NCBI GenBank assembly: GCA_028571685.1
Contig: CM053143.1
Coordinates: 194,749,829 to 194,813,828, forward strand
DNA from: Heterohyrax brucei
Taxonomy: Eukaryota > Chordata > Mammalia > Hyracoidea > Procaviidae
DNA: 64,000 bases
Direction of reading: 5' to 3'
In this document: positions 5,465-61,150 of the stretch, one piece after another
Layout of the letters: the number at the start of each line of letters is the position of its first letter
How positions within the stretch are numbered: the first letter of the stretch is position 1
The notes under the pieces: model-generated
The model's database searches: none
The model's input: only the letters and a program-made list of their open reading frames with translations
Told to the model about the DNA's origin: nothing
Program-made: the position numbers and the translations under genes

Positions 5465-5579
5465 GAACATTAGGAAGAGGAGGAGGGAATGAAGGCACGG
5501 CTAGTCGCCTCCGTCAACAACTGCCTCCCATGCCATGAGACCCGGACTGGGTGATGCCCAGCTACCGCTACTGAACAGG
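5465..5579 (+). mobile_element. L1 3'UTR, left part, split by the provirus
   Basis: The blocks 'aacaactgcctccc', 'ccatgagacccggactgg' and 'gatgcccagctaccgctac' correspond to 12400-12450 in a second copy of the same afrotherian L1 3'UTR. The sequence resumes after the provirus at 7689. The gap from ORF2 at 5460 suggests an internal deletion or two adjacent L1 fragments. Confidence 0.75.
5574..5579. repeat. 6-bp target-site duplication, left (aacagg)
   Basis: The hexamer aacagg directly precedes the 5' LTR and recurs exactly at 7683-7688 after the 3' LTR. Six base pairs is a duplication size used by betaretroviral integrases. Confidence 0.95.
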
Positions 5580-5608
5580 TGTTGGGAGCTCATGGAGACT
5601 GCGCCACC

Positions 5609-5629
5609 AAAATGGCGCCGACCGGAAGG
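5609..5629 (+). promoter_or_regulatory. YY1-like and ETS-like sites in LTR U3
   Basis: AAAATGGCG at 5609-5617 fits the YY1 core (AAnATGGCG), and CCGGAAGG at 5622-5629 fits the ETS core. Both are repeated in the 3' LTR. Occupancy is inferred from motif match only. Confidence 0.45.
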
Positions 5630-5736
5630 ACCGCGCCCTGCCTTAAGCCCTCACCACGGCAGTGTCTGCCCAGCAACTAAGCCAGCTCATCGCCCATTGG
5701 ACAGTACCCATCCTATCGGCGCCTCGCTCCCTTTGG

Positions 5737-5743
5737 TATAAAA
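5737..5743 (+). promoter_or_regulatory. LTR TATA box
   Basis: TATAAAA sits 16 bp upstream of the polyadenylation signal. Transcription would be expected to start about 25-30 bp downstream, near 5765-5772. The same box lies at 7510-7516 in the 3' LTR, where it could drive downstream host sequence. Confidence 0.85.
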
Positions 5744-5845
5744 GCAGTGGTAACAGGAAATAAAGTGTTCCGCTTCTCGTCTCCTGCTGAAACAGTGTCT
5801 CGGTCCTCTCCTTTGCGGGCAAAGGGGAACTTGGGCTGCGACATC

Positions 5846-5863
5846 TGGCGCCCAACGTGGGGC
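5846..5863 (+). promoter_or_regulatory. Primer-binding site, tRNA-Lys1,2 type
   Basis: tggcgcccaacgtggggc follows the LTR after a two-base spacer (tc). It is the 18-nt complement of the tRNA-Lys1,2 3' end, the primer class used by Mason-Pfizer-type viruses and HERV-K. Confidence 0.93.
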
Positions 5864-5950
5864 CTGAAGCGACCCTCACCGCGGGGACGCCCGGACAGGA
5901 CGCTGACTGCCCTTTGTGGGTCCCGGAACGCCTCACTCGGACTATCAAGG
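5864..5950 (+). other. Leader between PBS and env start
   Basis: Only 87 nt separate the PBS from the env ATG. No gag frame or long packaging leader is present. The join of leader to env, with CAG ending at 5898, would fit either a genomic deletion or a reverse-transcribed spliced env RNA. Confidence 0.7.
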
Positions 5951-6488
5951 ATGGATCCGCAGCTACGCAACCCGTCAGTACTGCTGCTGATACTGTGGAT
6001 CCCCCTCCTGGGAGCAACGGAGGGGGCAGATGAGTATTGGGGTTTACTAGACACCCTGCCCCTACCAATCCCTGTTCATCATACATCTCCGCTCCTACCC
6101 CGCTTCTCTACCACCAATTACTCTCTGCAACTTCCAGCCGTTCCTATGGATGAAAGTATTAGCCCAGAGCAGCGCCCCCTTAATGTCACCCTGAAAGGCC
6201 TGCTCTGCTTCACGGTATGCCGCAACTTATCGGACCTGACAACAGATGGCCACTCCTGTGTCACCTTTTACCTTCCCCCCCACTCCCGTATGTGTTCAAC
6301 TCCCGTTCATGTTCCTGCTTCACAACGGTTCCCAAACAAGCTCTATTCAGTGCCGCAACAGCACTTGCTTTTACTCTCTTTGTTGGAATGCTACTCTCTT
6401 TCAGACGGCGATAGTCGCCAGACTGCCGAGATATGTCCCTTGGCCTGTGAAATCCCCGTCGCCAGCCGAACTGTGGAGATCCAAGCGT
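5951..6488 (+). pseudogene. env: Broken env: signal peptide and shortened surface (SU) part
   Basis: The ATG at 5951 is chosen because it begins a clear signal peptide (basic/polar start, hydrophobic core about residues 10-22, Ala/Gly-rich cleavage region); the frame opens at 5747, but that upstream part lies in LTR and PBS. N-glycosylation sequons occur in both frames. The reading frame changes partway; the shift falls close to a seven-C run at 6275-6281, after which cysteine/sequon-rich SU sequence continues in another frame up to an RSKR furin-type site (6477-6488). About 175-180 residues is far below the several hundred usual for SU, so a deletion or an atypical SU is likely. Not functional as written. 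Confidence 0.85.
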
Positions 6489-7166
6489 GATTTCGGCCTC
6501 ACTGCGGCGATCGTAGCCGCCGTCACAGCCTCCGTAGCTGCAGCCGCTACTGCCGCTGTGGCCTTCACCCAAAATATTGAAACTGCCACCGTTGTTAATA
6601 GCATGGCGCAAAACACTGCTAATGCTCTCCAGACCCAGGCGGCTGTGAGCGACCACGTGTTGGGGGCTATCCATATCCTGAATCACCGTATAGACTTGGT
6701 ACAAGAACAATTGGATTCTCTGGTTCAAATCACCCAGTTGGGGTGCGCATGGCGCCTCCCCTCCCTGTGTGTGACCTCGGTACATTTCGACAATATCTCC
6801 CGAGCTGCTAACCTATCCCGCCTCCTTTCGCATCAACTGTAAACCAATTGGTCTCAGCGCATGGAACTGCTCCTAACCCAGTTGCATACAGAGATTGTAC
6901 GGGTTAATTCCACCAGGGTAGATCTTGCCATGGCGACCTCGTTGCGTGATTGGTTGAAGGGTGCGCTCGGCTTCCTCCAGCAGTGGGCGGGCACCGGTCT
7001 TTTGGGGGCTGCTTTGCTGGCAAGCGTGTTATTTCTTGTTTTGTGGATAAGAAGACGGTCCCGACAACAAAGCGTCCGTTATAGTCTACTTGTTCAGGCA
7101 TTTGCCCACACCGCCGAGCGCGATCCATCGGCTCAGGTGTGGCTGTCTCTATTGGATCGCTCCTAG
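6489..7166 (+). pseudogene. env: Broken env: transmembrane (TM) subunit
   Basis: After RSKR come an Ala/Val-rich fusion peptide, a heptad-like helical region, a C-x7-C loop (CAWRLPSLC), a membrane-spanning stretch (about 6990-7049) followed by basic residues (IRRRSR), and a short cytoplasmic tail. The total of about 225 codons is normal for a retroviral TM. An in-frame TAA at 6840-6842 interrupts the ectodomain and the frame continues beyond it. The loop lacks the CX6CC motif of gamma-type Envs, pointing to a beta-type Env. Confidence 0.88.
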
Positions 7167-7189
7167 CCTCGACCCCCTGAACAGAGGGA

Positions 7190-7320
7190 GGTGTAGCCAA
7201 TGACGGGCAACCTCCTCTGGGAAAACTACCAACCTAAGACAGGGAGCACACCTTGCTGTGTGCCACCCCCATGACGGGTAAGGAGTTCTTCCGCAGAGGA
7301 TGACCTAAGACAGGCAGCCT
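7190..7320 (+). promoter_or_regulatory. CTE-like RNA export element (type D retrovirus type)
   Basis: Four boxes lie in order: atgacgggcaa (7200-7210), cctaagacagg (7233-7243), atgacgggtaa (7271-7281), cctaagacagg (7304-7314). Both like pairs are exactly 71 nt apart. This is the box content and order of the constitutive transport element of Mason-Pfizer/SRV-type viruses, whose two internal loops bind the host exporter NXF1 (TAP) and move unspliced RNA to the cytoplasm. The position between env and the polypurine tract is also that of the viral CTE. Function here is inferred; the first box has C for T at one loop position. Confidence 0.85.
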
Positions 7321-7340
7321 CGCCTACCCTTACTAAAACA

Positions 7341-7352
7341 AAAGGGGGGAGA
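7341..7352 (+). promoter_or_regulatory. Polypurine tract
   Basis: The purine run aaaggggggaga lies immediately before the TG of the 3' LTR and is preceded by an A-rich stretch. It is the expected plus-strand primer site for reverse transcription. Confidence 0.92.
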
Positions 7353-7531
7353 TGTTGGGAGCTCATGGAGACTGCGCCACCAAAATGGCGCCGACCGGAA
7401 GGACCGCGCCCTGCCTTAAGCCCTCACCACGGCAGTGTCTGCCCAGCAACTAAGCCAGCTCATCGCCCATTGGACAGTACCCATCCTATCGGCGCCTCGC
7501 TCCCTTTGGTATAAAAGCAGTGGTAACAGGA

Positions 7532-7537
7532 AATAAA
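7532..7537 (+). terminator. Proviral polyadenylation signal
   Basis: AATAAA in the 3' LTR, 15 bp after TATAAAA (7510-7516). It would define the proviral transcript end in R. Confidence 0.85.
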
Positions 7538-7554
7538 GTGTTCCGCTTCTCGTC

Positions 7555-7682
7555 TCCTGCTGAAACAGTGTCTCGGTCCTCTCCTTTGCGGGCAAAGGGG
7601 AACTTGGGCTGCGACATCACTCCTGCTGAAACAGTGTCTCGGTCCTCTCCTTTGCGGGCAAAGGGGAACTTGGGCTGCGACA
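7555..7682 (+). repeat. 62-bp tandem duplication at the LTR end
   Basis: Units 7555-7616 and 7621-7682 are identical 62-mers joined by tcac. The 5' LTR has one unit only. The first two bases of the linker (tc) equal the spacer between the 5' LTR and the PBS. Confidence 0.95.
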
Positions 7683-7688
7683 AACAGG
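7683..7688. repeat. 6-bp target-site duplication, right (aacagg)
   Basis: Exact match to 5574-5579. Confidence 0.95.
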
Positions 7689-8100: not shown

Positions 8101-8282
8101 GAACATTGCTCAGTGAAATTAAAGATCTACATAAATGGAAAGAGATGCCATATTCATGCATTGCAAGGCTAAATACTGTTACGTATTTCTTTTCCCCCAG
8201 GAGATGTATGGCAGGGACTGACAAACCATTGCCTACAGGCTGCTTCCTGTTTTTCTAAAGAAAGTTTTATTGGAACATAAAC

Positions 8283-8445
8283 CAAATCCTGTGCTATAGA
8301 GTCAATTTCGACTCCTAGAGACCCTATAGAACAGAGCAGAACTAACCGACAGAGTTTACAAGGAGCGCCTGGTGGATTTGCTCTGCCAACCTTTCGGTCA
8401 GCAGCCGCAGCACTTAACCTCTGCACTGCCAGGGTTTCCTTACTG
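8283..8445 (-). mobile_element. AfroSINE, minus
   Basis: The reverse-complement SINE runs from the tail ('gactcctagagaccctatag') to the tRNA-like head ('aacctctgcactgccaggg'). It is inserted in the hAT remnant. Confidence 0.9.
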
Positions 8446-32365: not shown

Positions 32366-32530
32366 CACAAAAAAACATACCCAGTGCTGTCTAGTCAATT
32401 CTGACCCATAGCGACCCTATAGGACACAGTAAAAGTCCCATAGAGTTTCCAAGGAGCGTGTGGTGGATTAGAACCGCGAGCCTTTTGGTTCAGTCACAGC
32501 CCTTAACCATTGCACCACCAGGGTTTTCAC
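32366..32530 (-). mobile_element. AfroSINE, minus, nested in MaLR LTR
   Basis: From 'ccagtgctgtctagtcaatt' through 'ccatagcgaccctatagg' to 'aaccattgcaccaccaggg', well conserved. Confidence 0.9.
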
Positions 32531-42274: not shown

Positions 42275-42995
42275 TGCCCACTGCCCATTCATCATTCAGT
42301 CCTCCACCCATCTGTCCATCTTACCCACCATCCATCTACCCACCACCCATCCACACATCCATCCATTCATTCATCCATCTGTCCACCATCTAGCCATCTA
42401 GCCACCTAGCCACTACCCACCACTCACCCACTCACCACTCACCCATCCATCATCTATCCATCTAGCCACCCCCCACACCACTCACCCATCCATCCATCAC
42501 CCATCCATCCATCATCCATCCATCCATCATCCACTCATCCACCCATCCATCCATCCATCCACCCATCCACCCACCCACCCACCCACCCACCCACCCATCC
42601 ACCCACCCATCCATCCACCCATCCACCCACCCACCCATCCACCCATCCATCCATCATCCATCCATCCATCATCCACTCATCCACCCATCCATCCATCCAT
42701 CCACCCATCCACCCACCCACCCACCCACCCACCCACCCACCCATCCACCCACCCACCCATCCATCCACCCATCCATCCACCCATCCACCCACCCACCCAT
42801 CCACCCATCCATCCATCATCCATCCATCCATCATCCACTCATCCACCCATCCATCCACACACCCACCCATCCACCCACCCACCCACCCATCCACCCATCC
42901 ATCCATCCATCCATCCATCATCCATCATCCATACGTCCATACGTCCATCCATCATCCATCCATCCACCCACCCACCCACCCACCCATCCACCCTT
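42275..42995. repeat. CCAT/CCAC tetranucleotide array
   Basis: Over 700 bp of ccat, ccac and catc words. Longer blocks repeat with a landmark 'ccactcatcc' at 42531, 42672 and about 42835, a loose 140-165-bp higher-order unit. All frames read as Trp/Met/Asp/Gly or His/Pro/Ser/Ile runs. Confidence 0.92.
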
Positions 42996-45047: not shown

Positions 45048-45890
45048 CTCAAGCTCACTGCTGCCAGCTCCATTCTGACTCACGGTGACCCTAGAGGACA
45101 GAGCACGACTGTCCCACAGAGCTTCCAAAGCTTCAGTCTTTAAAAGGGCAGACTGCCATGTCTTCTCCCACGGAGTGACTGGTGGGTACAGACTGCCGTG
45201 TCTTCTCCCACGGAGTGGCTGGTGGGTACAGACTGCCGTGTCTTCTCCCACGGAGTGGCTGGTGGGTACAGACTGCCGTGTCTTCTGCCACGGAGTGGCT
45301 GGTGGGTACAGACTGCCATGTCTCTCCCACGGAGTGACTGGTGGGTACAGACTGCCGTGTCTTCTCCCACGGAGTGGCTGGTGGGTACAGACTGCCGTGT
45401 CTTCTCCCACGGAGTGGCTGGTGGGTACAGACTGCCGTGTCTTCTGCCACGGAGTGGCTGGTGGGTACAGACTGCCGTGTCTTCTGCCACGGAGTGGCTG
45501 GTGGGTACAGACTGCCGTGTCTTCTCCCACGGAGTGGCTGGTGGGTACAGACTGCCGTGTCTTCTGCCACGGAGTGGCTGGTGGGTACAGACTGCCGTGT
45601 CTTCTCCCACGGAGTGGCTGGTGGGTACAGACTGCCGTGTCTTCTGCCACGGAGTGGCTGGTGGGTACAGACTGCCGTGTCTTCTCCCACGGAGTGGCTG
45701 CTGGGTACAGACTGCCGTGTCTTCTGCCACGGAGTGGCTGGTGGGTACAGACTGCCGTGTCTTCTCCCACGGAGTGGCTGGTGGGTACAGACTGCCATGT
45801 CTTCTGCCACGGAGTGGCTGGTGGGTACAGACCACCCACCTTCTTCTCTGCTGCTGAGCGCTTTAACCACTGCACCATCAGGGCTCCTGT
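45048..45890 (-). mobile_element. AfroSINE, minus, expanded by an internal minisatellite
   Basis: The tail ('ctcacggtgaccctagagga', 'gcttccaaagcttcagtc') leads into the array; after it the head resumes ('gagcgctttaaccactgcac', 'catcagggctcc'). The SINE therefore spans about 840 bp instead of the usual 160-200 bp. Confidence 0.9.
45151..45829. repeat. 40-bp minisatellite, 17 units
   Basis: The unit begins gactgccgtg and ends ggtgggtaca. Starts fall every 40 bp from 45151 (one unit is 39 bp). Units carry tctccc or tctgcc; from unit 10 to 17 the two alternate strictly, implying a recent 80-bp dimer expansion. Because 40 is not a multiple of 3, several frames on both strands stay open, giving chance frames of 200-290 aa. 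Confidence 0.97.
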
Positions 45891-54941: not shown

Positions 54942-55020
54942 ATTTAAAAGAACAGGAACTTACCATCACATAGCTCAGGAGACCAGAAGTCCAGATGCGC
55001 GTGTCCACAGGGCCCTGCCG

Positions 55021-55661
55021 TCTCTGTCCCAGGTCCAGGTGTCCGCAGGGCCCTGCCGTCTCTGTCCAGGTCCAGGTGTCTGCAGGGCCATGCCGTCTCT
55101 GTCCCAGGTCCAGGTGTCCGCAGGGCCATGCCATCTCTGTCCAGGTCCAGGTGTCCACAGGGCCCTGCCGTCTCTGTCCCAGGTCCAGGTGTCTGCAGGG
55201 CCCTACCATCTCTGTCCCAGGTCCAGGTGTCCACAGGGCCCTGACGTCTCTGTCCAGGTCCAGGTGTCTGCAGGGCCCTGCCGTCTCTGTCCCAGGTCCA
55301 GGTGTCCACAGGGCCCTGCCGTCTCTGTCCCAGGTCCAGGTGTCCGCAGGGCCCTGCCGTCTCTGTCCCAGGTCCAGGTGTCCGCAGGGCCCTGCCGTCT
55401 CTGTCCAGGTCCAGGTGTCTGCAGGGCCCTGCCGTCTCTGTCCCAGGTCCAGGTGTCCACAGGGCCCTGCCGTCTCTGTCCCAGGTCCAGGTGTCCGCAG
55501 GGCCCTGCCATCTCTGTCCCAGGTCCAGGTGTCCGCAGGGCCCTGCCGTCTCTGTCCAGGTCCAGGTGTCTGCAGGGCCCTGCCGTCTCTGTCCCAGGTC
55601 CAGGTGTCCGCAGGGCCCTGCCGTCTCTGTCCCAGGTCCAGGTGTCCACAGGGCCATGCTG
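55021..55661. repeat. 37/38-bp minisatellite, 17 units
   Basis: The unit begins tctctgtccc and ends agggccctgccg. Twelve units are 38 bp and five are 37 bp (starting 55059, 55134, 55247, 55398, 55549), in total 641 bp. The first partial unit (54992) is part of the LTR. Frames up to 284 aa across it are artefacts. Confidence 0.97.
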
Positions 55662-55888
55662 TCTCTGTCACCGCTGTTGACTCTGGAGAAGATTCCTCTT
55701 TGTCTCTCTCACTGTCTGTAGCCCTGGGCATTTCCTGATGTCCCTAGGCTTGTAGCTGAATCCTCACATGGTGTGCCCCCATCAGGTGACTGTCCTTGGG
55801 TCCTATTTTCTTTTCTCTTGTATGACACCCTAGATAGATCAGGCTAAAACCGGCTCTGCTCCTCAGGACCTCATTAACAAAACAGATA

Positions 55889-59451: not shown

Positions 59452-59608
59452 TGGGGCCCCTGTGGTGCGGTAGTTAAGTGCTCAGCGGCTAACCAAAAGG
59501 TCAGCAGTTTGAATCCACCAGCCTCTCTTCAGAAACCCTGTGGGGCCATTCTACTCTGTTCTATAGAGTCTCTAGGAGACAAAATACACTCAACAGAGAC
59601 AGGTTTGA
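59452..59608 (+). mobile_element. AfroSINE, plus
   Basis: ggggcccctgtggtgcggt, 'gtttgaatccaccagcctct', 'tctactctgttctatagag'. Confidence 0.9.
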
Positions 59609-60400: not shown

Positions 60401-60507
60401 CTTTTGTTCTGTCATACAGAAGCTGACGGGACAGCAACCCTTTGTCCTTCTGTGACGTATCAGTTATTCATCTAGGTAACTGTCTATCATCTGTCAACTA
60501 TTTCTTC

Positions 60508-60706
60508 ATCCACCCATCCATTCATCCACCCACCCACCCACTCACCCATCCATCCACCCACCATCCACCCAACCACCCACCCATCCACTCATCCACTCAT
60601 CCACCCATCCACCCATCCACCATCCCCCATCCACCCATCCACCATCCCCCATCCACCCACCCACCATCCACCCATCCACCACCCCCCCATCCACCCACCC
60701 ATCCGT

Positions 60707-60737
<31 letters not shown>

Positions 60738-61150
60738 CCCGTCCACCCACCCATCCATCCATCCACCCACCCGTCTACCCGTCCACCCACCCACCCACCC
60801 AACCATCCATCCATCCAGCCACCCACCCACCACCCACCCACCTACTGGCTATTTATCCGTGTAGCTGTCTACTCTCATCTGTCTGTGCATCCATCTGCCC
60901 ACCCGTGGCGTATCTCGCTGTGTAGCTCTCTGTCTCTTCTTTGTCATCTGTACGTCTACCCGTCTAGTTACCTGGCTAGCATTTCTTTCTATCTAGTATC
61001 TGTGTCTTCTCTGTCATCTCTCTGTCCATCCACTCTTGTATCTTCCTATGTCGCTATCTGTCCATCTACTCTCCGTCATCTGTCTGTTATCTACCTACTG
61101 TCCGTCTGTCTCTCCCCATCCACCCATCTGCTCACTGCCAGTCTCTCTGC
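60508..61150. repeat. CCAT/CCAC array decaying into TCTG/CATC tract
   Basis: Near-perfect ccaccc/ccat words to 60845, then degenerate tctgtc/catctg words to about 61150. Frames read as His/Pro/Ser/Ile runs. Confidence 0.9.

Follow-up and report, generated by a model that had tools for sequence, protein, structure and literature searches.

Positions 5580-7682 of the 64,000-nucleotide stretch of Heterohyrax brucei DNA analyzed here (hereafter the window) hold an endogenous retrovirus (ERV) provirus on the plus strand that is only 2103 bp long, and the question it raises is how an element with complete ends came to lack gag, pro, and pol. Comparison with the rest of the host assembly indicates that the provirus is very probably a singly spliced env mRNA of its family, rather than genomic RNA, that was reverse-transcribed and inserted by integrase. 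This origin is favored because the gag-pro-pol gap runs exactly from a GT donor in the leader to an AG acceptor ahead of env, because the long terminal repeats (LTRs), primer binding site (PBS), and polypurine tract (PPT) are complete and the 6-bp target duplication is intact, and because the junction recurs at a second site with a duplication of its own.

The element is bounded by a perfect target site duplication, aacagg, at 5574-5579 and 7683-7688. Its 264-bp 5′ LTR (5580-5843, with TATAAA at 5737 and AATAAA at 5759) is identical at 264/264 bases to the regular 264-bp 3′ LTR (7353-7616), and both have TG...CA ends. The dinucleotide TC (5844-5845) separates the 5′ LTR from the PBS at 5846-5863, an exact TGGCGCCCAACGTGGGGC that we take to be of the tRNA-Lys1,2 type. 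Only 87 nt (5864-5950) lie between the PBS and the first env ATG, namely 35 nt of leader exon ending in GGACAG (5864-5898) and 52 nt of env exon (5899-5950), which leaves no space for gag, pro, or pol. Three open pieces of env follow, and a PPT at 7340-7352 adjoins the 3′ LTR. The original prediction, made from the letters of the window, that identical LTRs and a perfect 6-bp duplication enclose an element without gag, pro, or pol and with a broken env, agrees with this anatomy. Neither the LTR nor the region 5844-6900 has a second copy elsewhere in the window (one 17-nt match, E 0.49), and the window gave no hits when scanned with Rfam or for tRNAs.

The boundaries of the gap were located by searching the host assembly (3.49 Gb in 62 contigs) piecewise, which gave 518 first-look candidates for the LTR plus leader and 271 and 242 for the env pieces, the 40 nearest the window being scored in each search. 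Among those scored, both the LTR and env have matches in other parts of the assembly that reach 100% identity, which rules out chance. Leaders of unspliced copies read GGACAG/GTGAGCA at 22/22 places (6 + 16), and unspliced env is preceded by cagtctgtatcttcccacag/GACGCTG (...cttcccacag/GACGCTG) at 22/22 distinct places, with each copy entered only once and one locus with an inexact anchor (L038) excluded. The window joins precisely those ends as GGACAG/GACGCTG at 5898/5899; an initial guess that placed the junction at AAG/GATGG (5949/5950) was given up when the assembly comparison put the boundary here. The missing stretch, about 5.1 kb in the eight copies with both ends seen, thus appears to behave as a GT-AG intron carrying gag-pro-pol. 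The donor fits the splice consensus at 8/9 positions, and no other 8/9 donor occurs in eight gag-pro-pol pieces (20,808 positions) that represent four near-identical copies, or about 5 kb of distinct sequence. Across the assembly, the junction pattern is found at 2 places (at most two mismatches) and the unspliced donor pattern at 118 sites (at most one mismatch), with some copies holding two of the latter. In some unspliced copies, the splice-donor stretch is doubled 71 bp apart as a tandem repeat, for example at C2:21786507 and 21786578.

The locus therefore has the features expected of a provirus of the H-19 type, that is, a junction at the donor and acceptor of unspliced copies, complete LTRs, and an integrase-type duplication. 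In the sequence of events that would follow from this, env mRNA would have been spliced from GGACAG to GACGCTG with removal of gag-pro-pol, and the spliced RNA would then have been copied by Gag-Pol given in trans by unspliced copies. A supply in trans is plausible given the open gag, pro, or pol frames of some such copies, and to that extent the original prediction of mobilization by a helper provirus is plausible too. The accompanying idea of a non-autonomous family propagated by helpers is unsupported: the ends of the gap coincide exactly with splice sites, the 23 compared copies all share the env damage, and instead of the many copies with the same deletion that it had led one to expect, the junction is found at 2 places against 118 unspliced donor sites.

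Several observations weigh against an origin from spliced mRNA and lend themselves to another explanation, in which reverse transcriptase switched templates between short repeats in genomic RNA at positions that happen to coincide with splice sites. Acceptor-like sites are frequent (181/20,808 positions under a loose rule), so the acceptor by itself is weak evidence, and the 5-nt word ACAGG is common to both sides of the junction, so that the identical sequence would also result if the interval had been deleted through microhomology while the RNA was being reverse-transcribed. Internal deletions also happen in the family, as shown by copies in which the distance from LTR start to env is about 2.7, 3.0, 3.3, or 4.1 kb versus 5.4 kb (places paired by nearness). 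Shared words are abundant, however: the two compared 400-nt stretches have 139 of at least 5 nt in common, 2 of which can be read as GT-AG. The breakpoints seen here are a strong donor and a polypyrimidine-CAG acceptor placed correctly for env expression, and the identical junction is present in two insertions, which makes such a template switch improbable. A processed copy that LINE-1 made from a retroviral transcript would also have a spliced structure, yet it has next to no chance of being correct, as the element has U3 at its 5′ end and U5 at its 3′ end, no poly(A) at its right end, TG...CA ends, and an exact 6-bp duplication equal in length to that of 10/10 sampled family members.

A further alternative, which does not conflict with a spliced-mRNA origin, is that the window copy belongs to a helper-spread, non-autonomous defective lineage in which the second spliced copy is its parent or descendant. 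That second copy, on another contig (C13), is flanked by a duplication of its own (AGCAAG); its two LTRs are identical, and its 3′ LTR has the regular length of 264 bp. The common junction is what a lineage of this kind would produce, and family uniformity leaves no informative site against a common spliced ancestor. The count of two junction places against 118 donor-pattern sites argues the other way, as does the alignment from env to the PPT, which comprises 23 copies (the window, the second spliced copy, and 21 unspliced copies). Over its 1454 nt the two spliced copies differ at 7 sites; private bases number only 2 in the window copy (6108 and 6886) and 4 in the second copy, and there is no site in the 23-copy env alignment at which the two agree against most others, and so no allele specific to both. 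Their PBSs also differ, by one base, though the PBS can be rewritten in each round. A defective lineage thus retains a small chance, and two separate splicing events fit the sequence comparison. Because the family is nearly uniform, the two copies might also be read as sharing a common spliced ancestor.

The PBS difference was considered as proof of separate parents and set aside, as both forms occur among unspliced copies and the primer tRNA can serve as the template for the PBS. The two forms differ by one inserted G, and among 22 unspliced leaders the window form is found in 10 (L004-L009, L099-L102) and the other, which the second spliced copy also has, in 12 (L090-L098, L103-L105). They perhaps reflect the use of two lysine tRNA isodecoders as primers.

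The env gene is damaged in ways best seen by searching its three open pieces separately. Piece A (5951-6490) comprises a likely signal peptide, recognized by eye, and the start of the surface subunit (SU); alone it matched no Pfam family and gave a single PDB match (E 0.14), while its residues 30-94 align with residues 12-76 of P0004, a 539-residue relative, at 46% identity, and this frame has no match past about 6233. Piece B (6240-6839, with a TAA stop at 6840-6842) comprises the end of SU, a cleavage-site-like motif recognized by eye, and the ectodomain of the transmembrane subunit (TM). It has a PF00517 match (E 6e-06) that falls under that profile's cutoff, a weak match to solved HERV-K TM chains (E 5.7e-06), and 46-53% identity to proteins of Jaculus, Cricetulus, rabbit, and one further source. 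The TM portion shares 51-53% identity with three ERV Env proteins, and taken together these matches relate it to class II Env. Piece C (6843-7166) holds the remaining TM and the tail. As piece B aligns with residues 240-430 of P0004, about 150 SU codons are absent by comparison with this relative and the reading frame shifts within 6233-6276, in addition to the interruption by the stop at 6840.

The stop is carried by 23/23 aligned copies, and 6220-6300, which includes the zone of the SU gap and frame change, is identical in 23/23. The env defects are a family trait and not decay of the window copy, because all 22 other aligned copies have them. The shared gap and frame change lie near ACAG/ATGG within 6233-6276, and the gap could stem from a deletion that took place long ago in the founder or from splicing within env that later became fixed. 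The idea that the window copy underwent a second splicing event of its own in SU was rejected, as 40/40 scored places match straight across 6100-6500 and the feature belongs to the family; slippage in a run of C was likewise dropped as the source of the frame change, which the SU gap explains. A collection of viral contigs, when searched with P0004 and with the window PBS pattern, gave nothing for either, and one viral-contig candidate (L001) was discarded as a relative because its open reading frames resemble a phage structural gene. A defect common to the whole family would be consistent with spread inside germ cells or with Env supplied in trans.

The proteins missing from the window copy are encoded by its unspliced relatives, for which gag-pro-pol was read in pieces of eight copies. 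The 589-codon gag frame is uninterrupted in 3/8 of these, the pro frame is open to the end of the piece in 7/8, and the pol piece is open in 6/8. Pieces of two unspliced copies gave Pfam matches to Gag p10, p24, dUTPase, protease, G-patch, reverse transcriptase, RNase H, and integrase, a betaretrovirus-like set of domains that the window copy itself does not contain. The 6-bp target duplication and TG...CA LTR ends of the window copy are also betaretrovirus-like (class II). In a Gag comparison with scoring confined to the 7995 candidates with the most shared words, the ten top-scoring matches had 37-46% identity, and the named ones were for the most part rodent genes labelled ERV-K-like or 'IgE-binding protein-like'; the ten included a match from Rhynchocyon petersi (40%), an afrotherian. 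The rodent IAP/ERV-K type accordingly resembles the family in both Gag and Env piece B but at low identity, and the PBS of the window, presumably Lys-type, contrasts with what we take to be a Phe-type PBS in rodent IAP/ERV-K families. Judged by these sequence features, the element belongs to a recently amplified betaretrovirus-like (class II) ERV family. Copies of the family also occur in clusters, on C18 at about 27-32 Mb and on C11 at 50.42-50.45 Mb, and some share a 5′ flank (L004/L005, TTTCTC) or a regular 12.7-kb spacing; these clusters are probably segmental duplications carrying a provirus.

The absence of differences between the LTRs (0/264) gives a 95% upper age of 2.6 to 5.7 My at assumed rates of 2.2e-9 to 1e-9 substitutions/site/year, and of 11.3 My at an assumed 0.5e-9, in line with the recent integration originally claimed. 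The ratio of observed to expected CpG is 0.71 within the element versus 0.33 in the remaining window, which is a second sign of youth, independent of the LTR comparison. Ten unspliced copies, a non-random sample drawn from the best-matching places, have 0, 0, 0, 0, 1, 0, 2, 0, 0, and 0 LTR differences per 264 bases, so that 8/10 have identical LTRs, and perfect 6-bp duplications are present in 10/10. Their mean of 3/2640 corresponds to about 0.3 to 0.6 My at 2.2e-9 to 1e-9. These data confirm that the window provirus is real and young and that its family has been recently active, as had been proposed from the window.

The right end of the provirus departs from the regular structure by 66 bp that follow the 3′ LTR and consist of TC (as at 5844-5845), one additional A (together 7617-7619), and 63 nt of U5 (7620-7682), after which aacagg begins. 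The 63-nt piece is identical at 63/63 positions to the LTR end at 5781-5843, of which it is a third copy. The assembly contains the join of LTR to addition just once (at most two mismatches), whereas a single U5 is present in 20/20 other copies with the end read (the 3′ ends of L018, L028, L038, and L049 were left unread). Only the outer side of the 3′ LTR carries the addition, which the target duplication encloses. A TC dinucleotide at the right end of viral DNA is normally trimmed by integrase, and because TC also follows the LTR on the PBS side, the inner end of the addition resembles an unprocessed viral DNA end. The extra A resembles an untemplated base, and the added 63 nt resemble minus-strand strong-stop DNA.

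These resemblances give about an even chance that the addition arose through an end-of-template jump of reverse transcriptase. At the last step of DNA synthesis, the plus strand would have been extended as far as the minus strand reaches (..GACATC) and would have gained a single A without a template, whereupon the enzyme would have jumped to spare minus-strand strong-stop DNA. The jump would have left a second stretch of U5 at the right end alone, before integrase trimmed the outer end. A jump made while completing the plus strand would alter the 3′ LTR alone. Against such a jump stand the single copy and the unmapped transcription start. With the usual spacing, TATAAA at 5737 would place transcription initiation upstream of 5781, in which case the strong-stop DNA would need to be incomplete. 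That the addition is instead a tandem duplication of later date, or an artefact of assembly, and hence no trace of reverse transcription, is a less probable but still appreciable alternative; it would account for the tandem layout with 63/63 identity and for the single occurrence in the assembly. A plain duplication of the LTR end would not, however, bring the TCA, in which TC is the dinucleotide that follows the PBS-side LTR, and the outer end of the addition stops exactly at aacagg. Retroviral reverse transcriptases are described as adding untemplated bases and switching templates in the available part of PMC6885630, and no report of such a provirus right end was recognized by title or partial abstract in the open literature searched. 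A wider scenario, in which an env-defective ERV family in germ cells repeatedly copies spliced mRNA besides genomic RNA, with two separate insertions, one of which keeps a reverse-transcriptase jump, and with an SU gap that is maybe an older founder event, is tentative and on balance doubtful.

Proviruses derived from spliced viral RNA have few precedents in the open literature, for which titles and the accessible parts of articles were considered. HERV-H, one of these precedents, is of a different ERV class from the family described here. The Rous sarcoma virus (RSV) H-19 provirus is an integrated spliced v-src mRNA (PMC5441053), and PMC5086612 cites a title of related content (LTR, v-src, LTR). 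The likeness is a provirus made from spliced viral mRNA; H-19, however, is an avian sarcoma provirus in a transformed mammalian cell line, whereas the present provirus, seen in a genome assembly, would derive from the env mRNA of a betaretrovirus-like ERV. Mouse Mtv proviruses without the rem intron are inherited and betaretroviral and have a deletion exactly at viral splice sites, but the spliced segment lies within env of a provirus otherwise full-length where examined (PMC11998498), while here the entire gag-pro-pol stretch is lost. The same source, in the part available, terms spliced retroviral insertions in genomes rare and cites Goodchild 1995 for germline copies of a spliced HERV-H transcript, which differ in the use of a cryptic splice site (PMC11998498). 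Apart from H-19, Mtv, and HERV-H, no inherited provirus from spliced env mRNA was recognized among these titles and partial abstracts, and the parts of PMC12992720 and PMC3185594 examined describe no provirus from spliced RNA.

Other systems bear on individual steps. Spliced HIV RNAs are reported to be packaged and reverse-transcribed (PMC1868081), and doubly spliced env mRNAs are made by JSRV (PMC3185594), as far as the accessible portions of these papers go. Deleted betaretroviral proviruses are also known from SERV-K/MER11, where they are presumed to be co-packaged with replication-competent ones; those deletions, in the sections available, are common to 32 and 60 proviruses (PMC11379458), whereas the present gap has splice sites at both ends and was found at 2 places.

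In the hyrax genome, near-identical unspliced copies serve as controls for the splice-site gap, and the frequency of spliced-RNA insertion becomes measurable as two junctions against 118 donor sites, of which some copies hold two. The right end of the window copy may preserve a reverse-transcription error in an inherited provirus. For the host, the element marks a recently active family that is possibly polymorphic.

The remainder of the window contains long tandem repeats at 42328-42990, 45149-45832, 55001-55669, and 60507-60842, with units of 4, 40, 38, and 8 bp. It also contains SINE-like copies about 75% alike at 8282-8445, 32381-32526, and 59473-59607, which presumably resemble AfroSINE.

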